A stretch of DNA of 44,541 bases. Origin: Bacteroidota bacterium. GTDB taxonomy: Bacteria > Bacteroidota > Bacteroidia > Bacteroidales > PUMT01. Under the pieces are notes generated by a model. That model was not told the DNA's origin. It saw only the letters and a program-made list of their open reading frames with translations, and did not search any database. The stretch is from the NCBI GenBank assembly GCA_003554865.1, contig PWHJ01000189.1, positions 1 to 44,541 on the forward strand, in the 5' to 3' direction. Below are positions 26,398 to 36,287 of the stretch, in pieces. The translations under genes were made by a program, and so were the position numbers. Position 1 is the stretch's first letter. The number at the start of each line of letters is the position of its first letter.

Positions 26398-27465
26398 TCA
26401 GGCTCTATTTATCCATGATGCAATAAAATCACCAACATGAGAAGTCCCCTTTGCCATGTCCGGATCAAGATCCTTTGTAACTACACCTTCCTTTAATGAA
26501 GCCTCTGCTGCCTTCTTGACAATGGTTGCCTCCTGCTTAAGCCCGAAGGCATATTCAAGCATCATCGATGCGGAGAGAATCGCCGCAAGAGGGTTTGCAA
26601 CATTTTTTCCGGCAGCCTCCGGATAAGATCCGTGTATGGGTTCGAAAACAGAAGTGTTATCGCCGACCGATGCCGAAGGTATCAACCCCAAAGAGCCGCT
26701 TATCACAGCAGCCTCATCAGTGAGTATGTCGCCAAACATATTCTCGGTAAGTATAACATCGAAATCACGCGGACTACGTATAATCTGCATAGCAGCATTA
26801 TCAACATACATATAATCAACACTGACCCGGGGATATTCTTTTTCCATCTCTTTAATAGATTCCCGCCACAACCTTGATGTGGCCAGAACATTGGCTTTAT
26901 CGACCATAGTTAGCTTGTTGTCTCTTTTAGTGGCAAAGTCAAAGGCCAGATGTGCAATCCGCTTTATCTCATCACGGCGGTAAACAGAGGTATCAAAAGC
27001 GGTATTACCGTCTTCTGACCTCCCCCTTGGCTCTCCGAAATAAATGCCTCCGGTGAGCTCTCTTATGGTAAGAAACCCGGCACCTTCCACAATTTCTCTT
27101 TTAAGAGGTGACATATGCAAAAGCGGCCTGAATGTCAAAAGAGGCCTTATGTTGGCAAAAAGTCCAAGCTTTTGCCTCATATCCAAAAGACCTTTTTCGG
27201 GCCTGATCTTTGCAGCCGGATCATTGTCAAAGCGCGGATCTCCTATGGCCCCGAAAAGTACAGAATCAGAGCTCATACATATTTTGTGTGTTTTATCAGG
27301 ATAAGGATCGCCTGTTTTTTCAACAGCCACAGCACCTATCAAACCTTCCCTGTACCTGGGTTCATGCCCTTTTTTATTGCACACCGCATCAATAACTTTA
27401 ACCGCCTGCCTGGTTATTTCAGGACCAATGCCGTCACCCGGCAGCAAAGCAATATTTAGTATCAT
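26398..27465 (-). CDS. leuB: 3-isopropylmalate dehydrogenase
   Basis: Oxidises and decarboxylates (2R,3S)-3-isopropylmalate to 4-methyl-2-oxopentanoate with NAD, the third stage of leucine synthesis. The 355-residue protein has LLPGDGIGPE at the start, the substrate arginines within GLFANIRPL and IRELTGGIYFGEPRG, the KANVLATS segment with the catalytic lysine, the FGDILTDEAA metal motif and the cofactor segment EPIHGSYPEAAGKNVANP. It is the last gene of the ilvB-ilvC-leuA-leuC-leuD-leuB operon, 21 nt after leuD, and is closed by a strong terminator. Confidence 0.95.
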   Translation of the reverse strand: MILNIALLPGDGIGPEITRQAVKVIDAVCNKKGHEPRYREGLIGAVAVEKTGDPYPDKTHKICMSSDSVLFGAIGDPRFDNDPAAKIRPEKGLLDMRQKLGLFANIRPLLTFRPLLHMSPLKREIVEGAGFLTIRELTGGIYFGEPRGRSEDGNTAFDTSVYRRDEIKRIAHLAFDFATKRDNKLTMVDKANVLATSRLWRESIKEMEKEYPRVSVDYMYVDNAAMQIIRSPRDFDVILTENMFGDILTDEAAVISGSLGLIPSASVGDNTSVFEPIHGSYPEAAGKNVANPLAAILSASMMLEYAFGLKQEATIVKKAAEASLKEGVVTKDLDPDMAKGTSHVGDFIASWINRA

Positions 27466-27486
27466 ATATTCATTTTTTAAAATATT

Positions 27487-28086
27487 TTACAGCTTGTTGT
27501 TTTGCTTCTCCCATTTTTCTATCAACCAACTGTGACTCACAAGGTAATCGATATCATCGTATCCTTTCAGAAGACACTTTTTTTTATATGGTGGTATTTC
27601 AAATTCTTCGACCAACCCGCCACCTAAAACCTCAAAAAGTTGCCGGGGCAGATCAACTTTGACCTCAGTTGACGGCGCGGACTTTATAATATTAAACAAA
27701 CGTTCAAGAAAGCGCTCCGGCAACTCAATGGTCAGCAATCCGTTATTGAGGGCATTATTGCGAAAAATATCGGCAAAAGAAGAGGAAACCACCACCCTGA
27801 ACCCATAATCAATTATAGCCCAGGCAGCATGCTCCCTGCTGCTTCCACAACCAAAATTCTTTCCAGCAACCAGAACCTCTCCTTTGAACCTGTAATCGTT
27901 CATTACAAAATCCTTCCGGTGGTTTCCCTGCCGGTCATAGCGCCAGTCATAAAAGAGCTTTTCACCAAAACCGAGGCGGGAGACAGATCTTAGAAAACGG
28001 GCCGGTATTATCTGGTCGGTATCCACATTCTCCGCATAAAGAGGAACACAGGTAGAAATAAGCGTTGTAAATTTCTCTATCGGCAT
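27487..28086 (-). CDS. leuD: 3-isopropylmalate dehydratase small subunit
   Basis: Forms the isopropylmalate isomerase with LeuC and supplies the swivelling domain that contacts the substrate. The 199-residue length matches the long bacterial LeuD. Motifs: NVDTDQIIPARFL (about 20-32), GKNFGCGSSREHAAWAI (about 74-90) and the following VVSSSFADIFRNNALNNGLL. It starts 105 nt after leuC, the largest gap in the operon, and that gap contains a diverged copy of the interspersed repeat. Confidence 0.95.
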   Translation of the reverse strand: MPIEKFTTLISTCVPLYAENVDTDQIIPARFLRSVSRLGFGEKLFYDWRYDRQGNHRKDFVMNDYRFKGEVLVAGKNFGCGSSREHAAWAIIDYGFRVVVSSSFADIFRNNALNNGLLTIELPERFLERLFNIIKSAPSTEVKVDLPRQLFEVLGGGLVEEFEIPPYKKKCLLKGYDDIDYLVSHSWLIEKWEKQNNKL

Positions 28087-28153
28087 AGAAAGATGTTTTT
28101 AATAATTATAGTTCCGGCAAACAAGGTTAATCTGAAATAAAAGCCTCACGCTT

Positions 28154-28184
28154 GTCCATGTTGCTTTGTCTGCCAAATAGTGAT
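28154..28184 (+). repeat. Interspersed intergenic repeat, copy 3 (diverged)
   Basis: CCATG, then CTTTGTCTGCCAAA and a TGAT-like tail match copy 1 (CCATG ... TTTTGTCTGCCAAAGGCTGAT). The G-rich end is lost. It lies between leuC and leuD on the strand opposite to transcription. Confidence 0.4.
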
Positions 28185-28191
28185 TAATTTT

Positions 28192-29610
28192 TTACAGTTG
28201 ATTTTGTTGTAACTCCCGCGGATCGGTAATTTTACCAGTTATTGCGGCAGCCGCAGCCGTAAGCGGACCGGCAAGCATTGTCCTTGCCCCGGGCCCCTGC
28301 CTGCCCTCGAAATTCCTGTTTGAGGTTGCAACTGCATACTTGCCCCGCGGTATCTTGTCTTCATTCATTGCAAGGCAGGCCGAACAGCCGGGATAACGCA
28401 TCTCAAAGCCGGCATCTTCAAGTATTTTTGCCACACCTTCATCACATGCCTGCCTTCTAACCTGCATGCTACCGGGAACTATCCAGACCGTAACCCCCTC
28501 AGCCTTTTTTCTTCCTTTAACCAGGGAGGCAAAAGCTCTGAGATCTTCTATTCGTCCATTGGTACAGCTGCCAAGAAAAACGTAATCAACCTTTTTACCT
28601 TTCACTTTTTCTCCCGGAGAAAACCCCATATAGCGAAGGGCCTTATCATGAGCAGCTCGCAATGCCGGCTCCATCCGGTCAATCTCAGGGATCATCCCTC
28701 CTGTTTCAACCGCCATTGCAGGGTTAGTCCCGTATGTTATCATAGGTTCAACCTTGCGGGCATCAAAACTAAGCTCCCTGTCAAAAAAGGCACCGGCATC
28801 CGTAGGTAATTTTTCCCATCGATCAAGGGCTCTATCCCAATCTTCACCAGAGGGAGCATACTCTTTCCCCTTTACATAATCAAAAGTTACATTATCCGGG
28901 GCAACCAATCCACCCCTCGCTCCCATTTCTATGCTCATATTGCACACGGTCATTCTTGAATCCATCGTAAGTTTACTTATTCCCGGACCTGTATATTCAA
29001 CAAAATAACCGGCGGCACATTCGGTAGAAACGGTTGATATAATATGAAGCATCAGGTCTTTGGCAGTTACCCCCTCCTGCAGCTCACCTTCAACATTAAT
29101 ACGCATTTGTCGAGGCTTATGCTGCAAAAGTGCCTGAGAAGCCAGCACCATTTCAACTTCACTTGTCCCTATACCGAAAGCTATACTGCCCAAAGCTCCG
29201 TGAGTTGAAGTGTGGCTGTCACCGCATACAACAGTCATACCCGGCAGAGTAATCCCAAGCTCCGGACCTGTTACATGAACTATCCCGTTTTGCGGATGAT
29301 CAAGAGAGAAAAGCTTTATTCCATGTCTTTGGCAATTCTCACCAAGCATTTCAATCTGCTCCCTCCCACTTTCATCGCTTAAAGACAAATGCCGGTGGCG
29401 GGTGGGAACATTGTGATCGGCAACGGCAAAAGTCCTGCCGGGACGAAAAACTGAAACACCTCTCTTTTTTAGACCCTCAAAAGCTTGCGGACTGGTAACT
29501 TCGTGAATATAATGGCGGTCTATATATAAAATTGACGGACCGGAGGGTATAGTATGAACAATATGGGCATCCCAGATTTTGTCAAATATAGTCTTATCAT
29601 TTAAAGCCAT
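28192..29610 (-). CDS. leuC: 3-isopropylmalate dehydratase large subunit
   Basis: Fe-S hydro-lyase subunit of isopropylmalate isomerase, converting 2- to 3-isopropylmalate. The 472-residue protein carries [22 protein letters not shown], the cluster cysteine in FLGSCTNGR and the pair in GCSACLAMN, all as in aconitase-like LeuC. It is located between leuA (42-nt gap) and leuD (105-nt gap) in the operon. The length is normal and nothing is missing. Confidence 0.95.
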
Positions 29611-29652
29611 TTATGATTTATTTTAATTGAGATAATTTTTTCAAAGTTTCAA

Positions 29653-31149
29653 TCACCTGATTTTTGCAACGGCATCAATAAAAGCTTCAACAGATGCAGT
29701 GACTATATCGGTATTGGCGGAAAAACCGTAATAATTATCTCCTTTGTGCTCTATCTGCACATGCACTTTCCCGGTATCATCACTTCCCCGTGTGATTGCC
29801 TGGATCAAAAACTCCTCCAGCCTGACCCGGCGTTTTACAAGATTTACAACTGCATTGAAGGAAGCGTCTATGGGCCCGTTACCCCCTGCCGTTTCTGTAA
29901 ATACATCCCCTTTAAAGCTGATTTGCACGGTAGCTGTGGGAATGGTTGTCTTGCCCGAGAGGACCTGAAGCGATACCAGCTCGAGTAACGGTTTTTCCTT
30001 CACTTTCCCTTTTCCGGCAAGTATTTGGAGATCCTCATCGCCTACACTCTTTTTCTTATCTGCAAGATCAAGAAAACGGGAATAAACTTGATCAAGTTCC
30101 TCTTCCTCAAAACTGTAACCTAACTGCTTTAGCCTGTGCTTAAGTGCTGCCCGCCCGCTCCGTGCCGTAAGCTCAATAACCGACTTTTTCAAACCGACCT
30201 CGGCCGGATCAATTATTTCGTAATTCTGCCTGTGCTTCAAAACCCCGTCCTGATGAATACCGGAAGAGTGTGCAAATGCATTTCTGCCGACTATTGCTTT
30301 ATTGGGCTGAACCGGCATTCTCATAAGTGTGGATACCAACCTGCTCGTTTTTAAGATCTGGGTAGTATCTATTCCGGTTTCATAGTCAAGTAAATGATGG
30401 GATTTTATGGCCATAACCACCTCTTCAAGTGCTGTGTTACCGGCACGCTCACCTATTCCGTTAACCGTTGCCTCCACCTGACCCGCGCCGTTTGCTATCC
30501 CCGAAAGGGTATTTGCCGTTGCCATTCCAAGGTCATTATGACAATGGGTTGAAATAATGGCTTTATCTATGTTCGGCACATTGTTTACAAGATATGCAAC
30601 CTTTTCCCCGTATTCCGAAGGCAGGCAGTAGCCTGTAGTATCGGGAATGTTTACCGTACCGGCTCCGGCATTTATAACAGTCTCAACCACCCTTGCAAGG
30701 TACTCTTTGGAAGTCCGGCCGGCATCTTCGGCATAAAACTCCACATCGTCAGTAAACTTTCTTGCATATTTAACAGCTTCTTCAGCGCGCTTTAGTATTT
30801 CTTCATGGTCGGATTCAAGCTTATATTTTATGTGATAATCGGAGGTTCCGATTCCCGTATGGATACGTTTTCTTTCGGCATTCTGCAGCGAATTTGCCGC
30901 AACCTCTATGTCTTTCTTAACCGCTCTTGTAAGAGCGCATATAACGGGTGAACGAACCGCTTTTGAAATCTCAGATACAGACTTGAAATCTCCGGGACTT
31001 GAAACCGGAAATCCTGCTTCTATTATATCTGCTCCCAGTTTCTCCAGCTGTTTTGCAACTTCAACTTTTTCAACGGTATTAAGCTGGCAGCCGGGTACCT
31101 GCTCCCCGTCCCTGAGCGTTGTATCGAAAATTTTTATTCTCCTGGTCAT
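29653..31149 (-). CDS. leuA: 2-isopropylmalate synthase
   Basis: Condenses acetyl-CoA with 2-oxoisovalerate, the committed step of leucine synthesis. The 498-residue protein has the DRE-TIM barrel start [14 protein letters not shown] (about 7-20), the metal motif [19 protein letters not shown], and a C-terminal LeuA allosteric dimer domain (about 390-498) through which leucine normally inhibits the enzyme. The sequence [13 protein letters not shown] and the overall form match the standard Bacteroidetes LeuA rather than citramalate or homocitrate synthase. It lies 41 nt after ilvC in the operon. Confidence 0.93.
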
Positions 31150-31190
31150 AAAGCATTCATTTTTAAAAAATTAACCATTATTTCTTCATT

Positions 31191-32258
31191 TTAACTCTCC
31201 TGATCGTCCTTCTCAGGCCTCAGCTTCCTCACCCGGGCACCGGTCTTCCACATTTCAGCTTCACGCAGCTCCCTGAGCTCCTCATCAAGCTTTTCACGAT
31301 AATCAGGGCGGCTGTTTGCATCTATTGCCCGCCGGGCCTCTTCCCCTTTTGCAACACTTGAATAAAGCTCCCTGAATAAAGGTATATTGGCATCCCGGAA
31401 CCTCTTCCACCAGTCCAGCGCCCCTCTTTGGGCAGTTGTAGAACAATTTGCATACATCCAGTCCATTCCGTTTTCAGCCACAAGAGGCATCAGACTTTGT
31501 GTCAGCTCTTCTACGGTTTCGTTAAACGCTTCGGAAGGGGAATGGCCGTTTTCCCTCAAAGTCTGGTACTGTGCTGCAAAAAGTCCCTGAAGAGCGCCCA
31601 TAAGCGTACCCCTCTCCCCGGTCAGGTCTGAAAAAACTTCCTTCTGAAATGTTGTCTCAAACAAGTAACCGCTCCCAATACCTATACCCAAAGCAACAGC
31701 TTTGTCATAAGCTTTACCTGTTGCATCCTGATAAATACCATAGCTGGCATTCAGGCCTCGACCCTCCAGAAACATGCGTCTGAGACTTGTACCGGAACCT
31801 TTTGGAGCAACCATCACCACATCTATGTCATTTGCGGGCACTATGCCGGTTTGGTCACTATAGGTAACGGCAAAACCATGGGAAAAATACAACAGTTTAC
31901 CGGGCTTCAGGTGCTTTTGGACTTCGGGCCACAAAGCTATCTGTCCGGCATCGGAAAGAAGATACATAATAACGGTAGCCATTCCGAGTGCTTCTTCTGG
32001 TTTAAAAAGACTCTCACCAGGCTCCCAGCCGTCATCAACAGCTTTGTTCCATGAGCCGGACCCCTCTCTTTGTCCAACTATAACATTAAACCGGTTATCC
32101 TTCAGGTTGAGTGCCTGTCCGGCACCCTGCACACCGTATCCTATAACTGCTATAGTTTCTTCCCTCATGATATCAAGAGATTTGGAAAGGGAAAATTCAT
32201 TTGCCGTTACAACATTTTCTACTGTACCTCCAAAATTGATTTTAGCCATAATCTTCAT
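31191..32258 (-). CDS. ilvC: Ketol-acid reductoisomerase
   Basis: NADPH-dependent isomeroreductase converting 2-acetolactate to 2,3-dihydroxyisovalerate, and the equivalent isoleucine precursor. The 355-residue protein has the Rossmann motif AVIGYGVQGAGQALNL, the cofactor-selecting loop VGQREGSGSW, APKGSGTSLR, the catalytic Asp/Glu region FSDLTGERGTLMGAL and YANCSTTAQRGALDW. A start three codons later (ATG at 32249, MAKINFGG) is equally possible. It follows ilvB by about 20 nt with no ilvN in between, unlike the usual ilvB-ilvN-ilvC order. Confidence 0.93.
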   Translation of the reverse strand: MKIMAKINFGGTVENVVTANEFSLSKSLDIMREETIAVIGYGVQGAGQALNLKDNRFNVIVGQREGSGSWNKAVDDGWEPGESLFKPEEALGMATVIMYLLSDAGQIALWPEVQKHLKPGKLLYFSHGFAVTYSDQTGIVPANDIDVVMVAPKGSGTSLRRMFLEGRGLNASYGIYQDATGKAYDKAVALGIGIGSGYLFETTFQKEVFSDLTGERGTLMGALQGLFAAQYQTLRENGHSPSEAFNETVEELTQSLMPLVAENGMDWMYANCSTTAQRGALDWWKRFRDANIPLFRELYSSVAKGEEARRAIDANSRPDYREKLDEELRELREAEMWKTGARVRKLRPEKDDQES

Positions 32259-32278
32259 TTTTGTGATTAAATAATTTA

Positions 32279-34012
32279 TTACTCAAGACGTATATCCTCA
32301 ACAGACCCCCCGGGGGGTACCATCGGGAATACGTTCTGCTCCTTTTCAACTGCCACCTCAAGCAGATAAGGCCCTGAGGATTCAGCCATCCTTTTAACTG
32401 CCCCATCCAGCTCACTGCGGCATACAACCTTTTCAGAGGGGATGCCATAGCCGGGGGCGATGGACTGGAAATCGGGATTTGACATAAGTGTAGACGAATA
32501 CCTCTTTTCATAAAACATCTCCTGCCACTGCCTTACCATACCGAGAAAATTGTTGTTGATAAGTACCATTTTTACAGGTACCTTATACTGGCTTAATGTT
32601 GCCAGCTCCTGTAATGTCATTTGAAATCCCCCGTCACCTGCAAAAAGCACAACCGGACGGCAGGGTTTGCCGATTTTGGCGCCAATTGCCGCAGGCAGTC
32701 CGAAGCCCATCGTTCCAAGACCACCACTGGTTACGACAGAACCCGGCTTTCTAAATCCGAAATAACGCCAGGCAATCATCTGATGCTGCCCCACATCCGT
32801 AACCATAACTGCATCCTCTGTAAATGACGAAGATACGTGCCTGACAACCTCCCCCATGGTAACAGGCCCTTCTGCCGGAAAAACCTCTTTTTCAATAACC
32901 CTTTCATACTCAAGGCGATAACAAGCCCTGAACTCCTCCAGCCATTCACTGTGATCATTTTCATGCACCATTGAGGTTAGTATGGGAAGACTGTCTTTAA
33001 TATCACCCAGAACCGGCGCATCTGCATATACACGCTTGTTTATCTGGGAGGGCTCTATTTCCAGATGAACAATCTTTGCCTTTTTTGCATAGCTGCTTAC
33101 ATCAGATGTAACCCTGTCGTCAAACCGCATTCCTGCAGCAATGATAAGGTCGCATTCATTTGTTTTAACATTTGGTCCGTAATTACCATGCATACCAACC
33201 AACCCTACATTAAGCGGATGGTTTGAAGGAAGCGTTGACAAACCCAAAAGTGTTTCCGCAGCCGGGATACCTGTTTTTTCAATAAACCCGAGCAGCGCCT
33301 TTTCTGCTCTGGCAAGCCTTACCCCCTGTCCTACCAGAAACATAGGTTTCACCGAAAGATTAATAAGCCGGACTGCTTCTTCGACCTGTAAAGGGTCGAC
33401 TAAAGAGGAATAATTTATTTTTGGGCTACGGTCAAAAAACTTGTTTTCGAATCTAAAACTTCCCGACTGTGCGTCCTTTGTTATATCTATGAGAACCGGC
33501 CCGGGCCTGCCGCTTCTTGCTATACGAAAACCTTCGGCTATTGCCCCGGGTATCTCCTCCGGACGGGTTACCTGGAAATTCCATTTAGCAATGGGTTTGG
33601 TAATACTGATAATGTCTGTTTCCTGAAAAGCTTCATTACCCAGCATTGCTGACGGAACCTGGCCGGATATAACAACAACCGGAGTTGAATCAGCCTTTGC
33701 ATCTGCAATACCCGTCACAATATTTGTAGCACCCGGTCCTGAAGTTACAAAACAAACTCCTGTCCTGCCGGTAACTCTTGCATAACCCTGGGCTGCGTGA
33801 ACCGCTCCCTGCTCATGCCTGACCTGTATATGCCTTATTTTATCCCTGAAAAAATAAAGAGCGTCATAAACAGGCATAATAGCACCACCCGGATATCCGA
33901 AAACCAAATCAACTCCTTGACCAATAATGAACTTCATAAGGGCCCGGGCACCTGTCGCCGGTACAGCATCACCCGCCTCTCCCCTCTTGGCTGTTTTTTT
34001 GTGTATAACCAT
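32279..34012 (-). CDS. ilvB: Acetolactate synthase large subunit
   Basis: Thiamine-diphosphate enzyme joining two pyruvates, or pyruvate and 2-oxobutyrate, the first common step of branched-chain synthesis. The 577-residue protein has YPGGAIMPVYDAL, the cofactor-activating Glu67 in RHEQGAVHAAQGYAR, the FVTSGPGATN loop, the FAD-region WNFQVTRPEEIP, and the ThDP motif with Asp460 in AGDGGF followed by NNN. A biosynthetic rather than catabolic AlsS-type enzyme is indicated by the FAD-type segments and the operon. No regulatory small subunit gene is present beside it. It is the first structural gene behind the predicted attenuator. Confidence 0.94.
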   Translation of the reverse strand: MVIHKKTAKRGEAGDAVPATGARALMKFIIGQGVDLVFGYPGGAIMPVYDALYFFRDKIRHIQVRHEQGAVHAAQGYARVTGRTGVCFVTSGPGATNIVTGIADAKADSTPVVVISGQVPSAMLGNEAFQETDIISITKPIAKWNFQVTRPEEIPGAIAEGFRIARSGRPGPVLIDITKDAQSGSFRFENKFFDRSPKINYSSLVDPLQVEEAVRLINLSVKPMFLVGQGVRLARAEKALLGFIEKTGIPAAETLLGLSTLPSNHPLNVGLVGMHGNYGPNVKTNECDLIIAAGMRFDDRVTSDVSSYAKKAKIVHLEIEPSQINKRVYADAPVLGDIKDSLPILTSMVHENDHSEWLEEFRACYRLEYERVIEKEVFPAEGPVTMGEVVRHVSSSFTEDAVMVTDVGQHQMIAWRYFGFRKPGSVVTSGGLGTMGFGLPAAIGAKIGKPCRPVVLFAGDGGFQMTLQELATLSQYKVPVKMVLINNNFLGMVRQWQEMFYEKRYSSTLMSNPDFQSIAPGYGIPSEKVVCRSELDGAVKRMAESSGPYLLEVAVEKEQNVFPMVPPGGSVEDIRLE

Positions 34013-34048: not shown

Positions 34049-34082
34049 AAAAAACCCCCTCACTTTGAAGTGAGAGGGTTTT
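34049..34082 (-). terminator. Attenuator terminator hairpin of the ilv-leu operon
   Basis: On the minus strand a 13-position stem with one mismatch (34068-34080 with 34053-34065) is followed by six U residues (34049-34054). It ends about 37 nt before ilvB, so stopping here would silence the operon. Its 5' arm (34067-34078) can instead pair with 34110-34122 in the leader. Confidence 0.82.
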
Positions 34083-34102
34083 ATTGAAAAACTTTAAATA
34101 TA

Positions 34103-34174
34103 TCAAACACCCATCTCACTTCCCGGTGGAGTACTGAGAATAATAAAGAGAATGGATGTTAATATACAGTTCAT
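34103..34174 (-). CDS. Ilv-leu operon leader peptide
   Basis: A 23-codon open frame preceded by AAAAGG, between the predicted promoter and the terminator. Codons 4-13 are almost all branched-chain: Ile4, Leu5, Ile8, Leu9, Ile11, Ile12, Leu13, and the final codon is Val23. It begins MNCILTS and ends GSEMGV. Seven of ten codons in the run are Ile or Leu, as expected of a peptide that senses charged tRNA. A ribosome stalled near codons 11-13 would leave the antiterminator segment (codons 18-22) free; one that reaches the stop would cover it. Recognised from codon content and RNA pairing, not from homology. Confidence 0.75.
   Translation of the reverse strand: MNCILTSILFIILSTPPGSEMGV
34110..34122 (-). 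promoter_or_regulatory. Antiterminator segment inside the leader peptide
   Basis: GAAGTGAGATGGG on the minus strand is complementary to CCCTCTCACTTC at 34067-34078: nine pairs, a one-base bulge, then three pairs. Forming this duplex would block the terminator. It overlaps leader codons 18-22, so its availability depends on ribosome position. Confidence 0.72.
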
Positions 34175-34196
34175 ACCTTTTGCCGTTTTAACATTG

Positions 34197-34229
34197 CAAA
34201 TCTATCAAATAATGATTGTGACAAACAAA
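34197..34229 (-). promoter_or_regulatory. Promoter of the ilv-leu operon
   Basis: The minus strand has TAGATTTG at 34197-34204, a perfect TAnnTTTG, with TTTG motifs 17 and 21 nt upstream (34222-34225 and 34226-34229). Transcription would start near 34190, about 16 nt before the leader-peptide ATG. Confidence 0.65.
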
Positions 34230-34298: not shown

Positions 34299-35171
34299 CT
34301 ATTCGGGCATATCCGCCGGCATCTTCCCGCTTATATACTCACCCAGAACCTGCAGTTGATCAATCAGAGGAGAAATTGCAGAGAGAGCTTTTTTATACAT
34401 AGAATAATCTTCAAAAAGCAGATCAAGATAGAAAAAATATTCCCATTCCTTACCTACAATTGGAAGGGACTGGATCTTGGTAAGGTTAATCCCATAGTAG
34501 GCAAGTACCGAAAGTACCTGCGAGAGGCTGCCCACTTTATGGGGCAGGGAAAAACATATTGATGCTTTGTCGGAGTTTATATTTTTTTCAGCTGCATCGG
34601 CAGGTTCTACAACCAGGAATCTGGTATAGTTGCGGCTGTTGCTTTCAACACTCTCTGCAATCACTTCTAACTGATACATCCCGGCAGCCACCTCACTTGC
34701 AAGAGCAGCCGCCCCTCTGACTTTTTTGTCTCTTATATATTTGGCACTGAGCGCAGTATCTATAGTCTCCACAATCTCAACACCCTTTTCCCGGAGAGGA
34801 TCGAGAAATTTCCGGCATTGAAGAATAGCCATAGGATGAGAATAGATAACTTTTATATCCTTCATGCACTGTCCGGGCAAAGCAATAAGGTTTTGCACAA
34901 TTTTAAGATATACCTCACCGCTGATATTCATCCCGGAATTTTTTACCAGAGCATAATTGGAAAGCAGTGAACCGGCAACAGAATTTTCAATAGCCATAAC
35001 GGCACAATCAGCTTCTTTTTTTGAAATTGCTTCAAACAACTCTTCAAAAGTGTGGCAGTCAACCAACCCAATCTTTTCATTGAAAAAATATTTTCTTGCG
35101 GCAATTTCATGGAAAGAGCCATACCCGCCCTGCACCGCAACTTTTTTCCTGCAACCTCTTTTACACACCAT
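34299..35171 (-). CDS. pheA: Prephenate dehydratase
   Basis: Monofunctional enzyme that converts prephenate to phenylpyruvate, the last shared step before phenylalanine. The 290-residue protein has a catalytic domain (about 10-190) with VAVQGGYGSFHE, MAIENSVAGS, HPMAILQC and the essential TRF motif at 183-185, then an ACT domain (about 204-285) with SLPHKVGSLSQVLS and LTKIQSLPI for phenylalanine feedback. There is no fused chorismate mutase. It is transcribed in the same direction as the ilv-leu operon and ends about 95 nt before that operon's promoter, without an obvious terminator between, so some read-through into the leader is possible. Confidence 0.93.
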   Translation of the reverse strand: MVCKRGCRKKVAVQGGYGSFHEIAARKYFFNEKIGLVDCHTFEELFEAISKKEADCAVMAIENSVAGSLLSNYALVKNSGMNISGEVYLKIVQNLIALPGQCMKDIKVIYSHPMAILQCRKFLDPLREKGVEIVETIDTALSAKYIRDKKVRGAAALASEVAAGMYQLEVIAESVESNSRNYTRFLVVEPADAAEKNINSDKASICFSLPHKVGSLSQVLSVLAYYGINLTKIQSLPIVGKEWEYFFYLDLLFEDYSMYKKALSAISPLIDQLQVLGEYISGKMPADMPE

Positions 35172-35308
35172 TTTTACATTAAATTTTTATCTGCAATATT
35201 AACAATAAAAGCTGCAGGTAAAAAACACACCATACAATATACCTGACCCGGATACCGGCACGGGAAAATAAAATCAGCTACCGAAGGTCATTAATCGGAT
35301 GGGAGGAA

Positions 35309-35346
35309 AATAGAGCAGGAGGAAAACTACTTTGTCTTCCTCCTGC
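35309..35346 (-). terminator. Terminator of the DUF4382 lipoprotein gene
   Basis: A perfect 10-bp stem (GCAGGAGGAA at 35315-35324 with TTCCTCCTGC at 35337-35346) is followed on the minus strand by a short mixed U tract. It lies 45 nt after the gene. Confidence 0.6.
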
Positions 35347-35390
35347 ACGATCATGTTATGAATCTGGCACAACAACCCGGGAACCGGAAC

Positions 35391-36287
35391 TTACAGCTGT
35401 TCAATATCTATCGGGTGACTGGTGTTCTTTCTGCTTTCAACCTCAATCTCTTCAACTATTCCAAGCACCTCCTCAAATTCACCATCTTCGGTTGCAACCA
35501 CAACCAAATCATAAAGGCCGGAGGCAAGAAAAGCAAGATGGTAGGAGTTGTTTTCACAAACTTTGTCGCTTGATACGGCATTGGGAAACCTTGTTTCCAT
35601 TTCATCCGGATCGGGGTCATCGGCTTCGGAAGGCTCATAAGTGCCGTCCTCGTAAGCATATATCACAATTCCCTTACCTTCGGGAATGTTTGAAACCCCG
35701 CCTGTTATCTTACCGGCCTGGTCGTCAACAACAAGACGGATAGTCGGTTTAAGTATATACCTTCCTGCACCGCTTTCCCTGACAGACCTTCTCACATCAA
35801 AGTCGGCCGTTACATCAACCGAACCGTTAACAGGGACCTCGAAAGCCCCCACTGCCTTGTATCCTGTCTGCCATCCACTGGGTACAAACAAAGACTCTTC
35901 ACTGCCGTCTTCAAGCACTACATAACAACCCGGGTTTGTGGGCGGACCACCGCCAAACTCCGGTGCATCCAGCATAAACCTTATTTGAGTATATCTGCCG
36001 GCTTCCATTTCGAAACTACCCAGAAATTCAGTCTCACCTCTTACCAGTTCCAGAAGCTCAATTTTTTTGGGGCCTTCGAACTCTTCAAAGACCTGCCAGT
36101 TGTTGTCCGGTGTATGATAATGTATTTCAGATACCGTTATGTACACCTCTTCAATCCCGTCAGAGTCGAGCGGTGCATCTGTCATGGAAAGGTTCATCAT
36201 ACCTTTATTCTCATCCTCCTTCTCGCATCCGGTATATGCAAGTAACATTATCAAAGCTGCCGGCAACAGAATTAAAATCTTTTTCAT
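35391..36287 (-). CDS. DUF4382-domain lipoprotein
   Basis: A 298-residue predicted lipoprotein: signal sequence ending LLAYTGC (Cys21). The N-terminal half (about 28-185) matches the DUF4382 pattern, with the start LSMTDAPLDSDGIEEVYITVSEI and strands such as AGRYTQIRFML and VDVTADFDVRRSV. The C-terminal part (about 190-298) looks like a carboxypeptidase-regulatory-type beta sandwich with an acidic loop (EADDPDPDEME). The function of DUF4382 proteins is not known to me. They are common surface or periplasmic lipoproteins in Bacteroidetes. Single gene with its own terminator. Confidence 0.82.
   Translation of the reverse strand: MKKILILLPAALIMLLAYTGCEKEDENKGMMNLSMTDAPLDSDGIEEVYITVSEIHYHTPDNNWQVFEEFEGPKKIELLELVRGETEFLGSFEMEAGRYTQIRFMLDAPEFGGGPPTNPGCYVVLEDGSEESLFVPSGWQTGYKAVGAFEVPVNGSVDVTADFDVRRSVRESGAGRYILKPTIRLVVDDQAGKITGGVSNIPEGKGIVIYAYEDGTYEPSEADDPDPDEMETRFPNAVSSDKVCENNSYHLAFLASGLYDLVVVATEDGEFEEVLGIVEEIEVESRKNTSHPIDIEQL

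Follow-up and report, generated by a model that had tools for sequence, protein, structure and literature searches.

The ilv-leu operon and its predicted leader peptide

The window, by which we mean the whole stretch of 44,541 nucleotides that was analysed, carries on its minus strand an operon with the gene order ilvB-ilvC-leuA-leuC-leuD-leuB. The first gene, ilvB (32279-34012), encodes the large subunit of acetolactate synthase and matches TIGR00118 with 669 bits against a cut-off of 538. The downstream genes, which together span 26398-32258, are ilvC (31191-32258), leuA (29653-31149), leuC (28192-29610), leuD (27487-28086) and leuB (26398-27465), each assigned from a match to an NCBIfam equivalog profile above its cut-off. 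Directly adjoining ilvB is ilvC, with no ilvN at their junction (32258-32279), and the whole genome (G000, 96% complete) gives no TIGR00119 match for ilvN. In relatives such as L003 there is a small-subunit-like gene between ilvB and ilvC.

The feature under study (34049-34229, minus strand) lies between the prephenate dehydratase gene, pheA (34299-35171), and ilvB. It includes a predicted promoter of the Bacteroidota sigma-A type (34197-34225, minus strand), made up of TTTG at 34225-34222, a spacer of 17 nt and the -7 box TAGATTTG (TAnnTTTG) at 34204-34197, from which transcription is predicted to start at about 34191. An earlier, sequence-only reading of this DNA had proposed a consensus Bacteroidetes promoter before the leader peptide; both elements can be read on the minus strand, and the box is enriched across the related leaders described below, where 43 of 70 have a TAnnTTTG no farther than 70 nt ahead of their ATG, compared with 15 of 549 control windows. 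Its position is mostly about 30 nt before the ATG, matching the 30 nt that separate TAGATTTG from the ATG in the window. A generic sigma-70 scan did not detect the promoter of the ilvB leader, as is expected for Bacteroidota.

The leader peptide gene, MNCILTSILFIILSTPPGSEMGV, is a predicted open reading frame (ORF) of 23 codons (72 nt) that runs from ATG to TGA on the minus strand (34103-34174). Isoleucine or leucine is specified by codons 4, 5, 8, 9, 11, 12 and 13, that is by seven of the ten codons 4-13, just as the sequence-only reading had it. The ORF is without a clear Shine-Dalgarno sequence, as are most mRNAs of Bacteroidota. No Phe attenuator is seen before the pheA of the window, where positions 35172-35420 contain no Phe-rich short ORF with a terminator.

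Four predicted RNA segments in the leader

Between the leader ORF and ilvB there is an intrinsic terminator, AAAACCCTCTCACTTCAAAGTGAGGGGGTTTT (34082-34051, minus strand), which ends in the six T residues noted earlier and folds with -20.6 kcal/mol (z -7.1 against shuffles); when its stem is drawn at full length, four of the six terminal T are paired. The 5' arm of this terminator (segment 3, 34069-34082, minus strand) is common to terminator and antiterminator, and the 3' arm with its U-tract forms segment 4 (34049-34064, minus strand), for which the family alignment has compensatory changes at three stem pairs. Segment 2, the antiterminator sequence GGAAGTGAGATGGGTGTTT (34105-34123, minus strand), extends from codon 18 to the stop codon. 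It pairs with segment 3 (AAGUGAGAUGGG..:CCCUCUCACUU) through 12-13 base pairs with one bulge, giving a duplex of -20.2 kcal/mol, and so bears out the pairing that had been proposed for codons 18-22.

The leader as a whole (144 nt) folds better than its shuffles, with a z of -4.9, and in its minimum free energy (MFE) structure the antiterminator GGAAGUGAGAUGGGUGUUU is base-paired to UAUAUUAACAUCCAUUCUC (34166-34148), in the region of the control codons. This protector, segment 1 (TATATTAACATCCATTCTC, 34148-34166, minus strand), is located inside codons 3-9 and forms a 1:2 duplex of -18.0 kcal/mol that is only moderately better than those of codon shuffles, 28 of 500 being equally good. Since a protector is found in the control-codon region, the leader has four segments, and the three-segment design put forward in the sequence-only reading gives way to the classical one; the 1:2 pairing is, furthermore, conserved with two-sided changes. 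Judged by comparison of sequences, the assignment of four segments is firm for the family of the window and the order to which it belongs; for the most distant part of the phylum the case is weaker.

The leader thus has the make-up of a trp/his-type attenuator. Codons for the amino acids of the operon are clustered in a short ORF, a feature that is conserved across relatives; an intrinsic terminator separates this ORF from ilvB; the antiterminator (2:3) and the terminator (3:4) are competing folds that exclude one another; and, in the window, the protector pairing overlaps the control codons.

Conservation of the module across Bacteroidota

The comparison of upstream regions shows that both the peptide and the alternative pairings are conserved, in a sister species and in ilvD and ilvB leaders across the phylum. 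In the sister species ilvB is preceded by the same module, whose peptide reads MTYILTSILFIILLGQRDRSENGV; ILTSILFIIL and both alternative pairings are retained there despite the differing sequence. A search for ilvB in 60 related genomes and in named genome contigs gave 110 loci, in most of which ilvD precedes ilvB and the module sits before ilvD. Automatic detection of a terminator, short ORF and antiterminator in combination gave, once three artefacts had been removed, 70 distinct leaders from about 60 loci, located before ilvD or ilvB; three leaders with a short T-run (L032, L114 and L119) were missed by the scan and added by hand. The leaders were chosen with a weak 2:3 threshold of -6 kcal/mol and with no information on 1:2, and their numbers are lower bounds, since the scan required a T-tract and an ATG start.

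In a separate survey of the phylum, 27 of 100 ilvD upstream regions gave a match, and three of these were set aside as GC-rich artefacts. Of the remaining 24 leaders, 13 belong to a single family from a class other than that of the window (with peptides such as MLSTVISLVIIRVIG), and in many genomes of this 100-region sample no such module was found. Comparable leaders before ilvD or ilvB thus number about 94 (70 and 24) across Bacteroidota. Both strands of 1.85 Mb held 299 terminator-like hairpins, and among these a terminator was combined with a short ORF holding six or more Ile, Leu or Val in ten codons and with an antiterminator of -8 kcal/mol or better almost only before ilv genes, two other distinct places being counted.

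Outside the pairing arms the sequence is not conserved, and the runs of Ile, Leu and Val codons are. The position of the stop codon relative to the antiterminator varies across relatives, from well after it, through within it, to just before it, so that the earlier remark that the antiterminator is inside the coding part of the peptide is true of the window but does not describe a fixed feature. The spacing between the last control codon and the start of the antiterminator is narrow, with a median of 9 nt and quartiles of 7-12 nt, and is 12 nt in the window. This is about the distance at which the leading edge of a stalled ribosome would lie, given its footprint, as if a ribosome held at the control codons served as a ruler. 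The geometry proposed in the sequence-only reading agrees with this: with a ribosome at codon 13 the antiterminator would begin just beyond the ribosome's leading edge, and one that has reached the stop codon would cover all of segment 2.

Covariation of the two alternative pairings

The terminator arm differs by lineage (CTCTCAC, TTTCTCA, ATTCTC, GTATCA, CCCTTC, CCCTTT and CTTCC), and the antiterminator changes alongside it. When 2:3 energies are compared type by type, they are lowest on the diagonal, or within about 0.5 kcal/mol of the lowest, for most types. For 37 non-redundant leaders the 2:3 energy averages -13.4 kcal/mol with the leader's own partner and -9.3 +/- 0.42 kcal/mol with swapped partners (0 of 20,000 permutations), a test slightly biased by the selection of leaders partly on 2:3 energy. 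Within the close family the 2:3 pairs are nearly invariant, and covariation is therefore uninformative there.

The 1:2 pairing behaves in the same way, with -13.6 kcal/mol for own and -9.9 +/- 0.41 kcal/mol for swapped partners among the 37 non-redundant leaders (0 of 20,000 permutations). Against codon-order shuffles, which preserve peptide composition and codon usage, the 70 leaders have a mean z of -1.71 +/- 0.15, with 51 below -1 and one above +1. This value was obtained with segment 2 extended by 9 nt downstream, an extension picked after the fold of the window had been inspected; with segment 2 trimmed to the antiterminator core the mean z is only -0.8. The improvement arises because the protector pairs past the antiterminator core. 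Given this post hoc choice, more neutral checks are offered by the partner swaps and by the out-of-sample set. In the latter, the phylum sample, 1:2 is weaker, with a mean z of -1.0 +/- 0.3 and 12 of 24 leaders below -1. Partner swaps among its eight non-redundant leaders reach the observed 1:2 energy in 2165 of 20,000 permutations.

For the family of the window, 14 leaders could be aligned, comprising those of the sister species, of the genome's own ilvD and of ilvD in related genomes. Segments 1 and 2 pair in 14 of 14, with differing sequences: the window has AACAUCC:GGGUGUU, L118 has AACAUCGAUC:GAUCGAUGUU, L114 and L032 have AACAAC:GUUGUU, and the genome's own ilvD leader has CCGUCUU:AAGACGG. 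In the outer six 1:2 pairs of the alignment, 91.7% of cells are standard pairs, compared with 35.7-54.8% when the partner is slid by 1-3 columns, a count that is conservative for L121 and L112, whose rows are probably misaligned in segment 1. The observed 1:2 covariation was reached in 0 of 500 shuffles, and pair 25:80 occurs as AU, UG, UA and GU.

Proposed mechanism and alternatives

How might such a leader control the operon? We conclude that it is very probably a classical four-segment, ribosome-mediated transcription attenuator of the trp/his type, acting on ilvB-ilvC-leuACDB. A complete ribosome-mediated attenuator had already been suggested for this operon, and conservation of the peptide, recurrence of the architecture, the co-changing pairings and the promoter spacing all argue for it. 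From these parts, their conservation and their covariation, which come from the sequence and its comparison, we infer that the ORF is translated, that ribosomes stall on it and how the operon responds. Transcription would start at about 34191, and a ribosome would load on the leader ORF without a clear Shine-Dalgarno sequence. If charged Ile or Leu tRNA is scarce, the ribosome would stall at codons 4-13 and cover segment 1, leaving segment 2 free to pair with segment 3; no terminator would then form, and ilvB-ilvC-leuACDB would be transcribed. With plentiful Ile and Leu the ribosome would reach the stop codon and cover segment 2, allowing the 3:4 terminator to form, and if the leader is not translated 1:2 would form and termination is again expected. 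Given the absence of ilvN, attenuation may carry a larger share of control in this genome.

An improbable alternative is a three-segment attenuator, in which there is only antiterminator against terminator, covering of the antiterminator is all that the ribosome does, and transcription reads through a leader that is not translated. Such a design would be served by an antiterminator that begins right past the leading edge of a codon-13 ribosome and is covered by a ribosome at the stop codon, and the weakness of 1:2 in some lineages is in keeping with it. We reject it, however, on the 1:2 fold of the window, the two-sided changes in the family and the phylum-wide results of codon-order shuffles and partner swaps.

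Much less likely still is a leader in which a riboswitch, a T-box (metabolite- or tRNA-binding RNA) or a bound protein switches the terminator. Such switches, too, combine a terminator with an alternative fold, but a riboswitch or other Rfam family is discounted by the lack of any match at the gathering cut-off in the window, where the sub-threshold matches are far below it and mutually unrelated; moreover, sequence outside the arms is unconserved whereas the codon runs are conserved, becoming His or Trp in his and trp leaders. Least likely of all is that the ORF is a chance frame and the hairpin no more than an ordinary terminator for pheA upstream. Although the hairpin lies between two co-directional genes and would also end pheA transcripts, the sister species keeps ILTSILFIIL and both pairings with a different sequence, the module stands before ilvD in most relatives, and a promoter box separates pheA from the leader ORF.

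Relationship to known attenuators

Attenuation of ilv genes through leader peptides has long been known in enterobacteria. The four-segment leader described here resembles the enterobacterial trp, his, ilv and leu attenuators in its pathway-rich peptide, its 1:2, 2:3 and 3:4 pairings and its intrinsic terminator before the first gene. It differs from them in its short ORF of 72 nt, where segment 1 falls within the control codons and segment 2 overlaps the ORF's end, and in its Bacteroidota promoter, the lack of an obvious Shine-Dalgarno sequence and the lack of similarity by Rfam models. A search of the window against Rfam gave no family at the gathering threshold, including Leu_leader, Phe_leader and the ilvB motifs; the best sub-threshold match of leader type was to Phe_leader, on the opposite strand, with 23.1 bits against 55. 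Because these leaders fall outside Rfam, annotation pipelines miss them.

In Corynebacterium, upstream ORFs before ilvB are described as common, and the ilvBNC leader (ilvB-II motif) likewise has an Ile/Val/Leu-rich ORF before ilvB, an antiterminator and a terminator, with initiation without a ribosome binding site reported there too (PMC10272879, PMC11857589). That leader belongs to another phylum and is unrelated in sequence, with a peptide of 15-17 codons and one copy per genome, compared with two here (ilvB and ilvD). The ilvB-OMG and Leptospira ilvB motifs are also conserved RNAs before ilvB, with upstream ORFs rich in branched-chain amino-acid (BCAA) codons, and are read as attenuators; they are, however, defined by conservation of sequence and structure in other groups, and no match in the window is reported (PMC10272879). 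Within the Bacteroidota, strong clues to leader-peptide attenuation are reported from the transcriptome of Flavobacterium psychrophilum, where structured, transcribed 5' regions stand before amino-acid biosynthesis operons and the elements of hisG and pheA are described as conserved and as lacking Rfam hits; the main text of that study gives leader attenuation as a summary statement (PMC9723704). In Bacteroides thetaiotaomicron, short ORFs in long 5' UTRs are described as reminiscent of leader peptides (PMC7366714).

Attenuation of ilv genes and clues to leader peptides in Bacteroidota are thus already known, and the leader of the window adds a case. The literature that we searched, incomplete in its coverage, yielded no description of a Bacteroidota ilv attenuator with its segments; a prior prediction is possible in Lopatovskaya et al. 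(2010), reportedly a study on attenuation in bacteria. Nor did it yield, with the same incomplete coverage, a description of the four-segment layout across the phylum or of the serial double attenuators described below. Attenuation requires that a ribosome loads and moves closely behind RNA polymerase, and a conserved attenuator before a major biosynthetic operon offers a simple, testable reporter for transcription-translation coupling in Bacteroidota; within the literature searched, no paper was found that joins Bacteroidota, leader peptides and this coupling. It would also make amino-acid control predictable from sequence alone in soil, marine and sediment Bacteroidota.

Further predicted attenuators, some of them in series

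The genome's own ilvD, on a separate contig (G000:C11:23280-25097), carries a second attenuator, MRPISVLHILIIIILWGISHGGEDGM. In this genus ilvD is split from the ilvB operon; both keep an attenuator, and the sequences of segments 1 and 2 differ between them. Leaders for other pathways are also present. That of hisG, MYTLAAHTGHFHHHHHTGMK (L230:1340-1474, G000:C222), has seven His in ten codons followed by a terminator with a long T-tract, its predicted 2:3 pairing being weak (-7.6). The trpE leader, MSNIFYIHTWCWHNEHTRFVPGLL (L233, minus strand, about 1019-820, G000:C222), has Trp codons, an antiterminator, a protector and a terminator, with TATATTTG upstream of it. The match between codon run and pathway, for His, Trp and Ile/Leu alike, is strong evidence that the ribosome would sense charged tRNA.

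A further ORF, MYNFWWWHNGINHCVKHCLPPGDI, at a contig end (L237:1-260, minus strand, G000:C75), contains three Trp codons and is accompanied by a terminator. The 5' end of a group II intron (RF02001, 33.0 bits against 32) comes directly after, truncated where the contig stops.

Before ilvD in ten relatives (L049, L053, L058, L061, L064, L067, L070, L072, L075 and L089), two complete Ile/Leu/Val attenuators stand in series on one strand, separated by 10-117 nt. A TAnnTTTG box lies ahead of the first unit in six of the ten and ahead of the second in none, which suggests that both units would be on one transcript. In several serial leaders (for example L064, L049 and L053) each antiterminator prefers its own terminator. 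We lean, by a little, towards a wider view in which BCAA attenuation is old and widespread in Bacteroidota, operates without Shine-Dalgarno sequences, has been redeployed to His and Trp operons and has in several lineages been doubled in series on one transcript with private 2:3 pairings. If this is true, polymerase on the doubled leaders must pass two independent ribosome checks. At one of the serial loci, in an Aquimarina genome, a Flavo-1 RNA (RF01705, 46.7 bits against 42; L058:5255-5363) lies a few hundred bases past ilvB.
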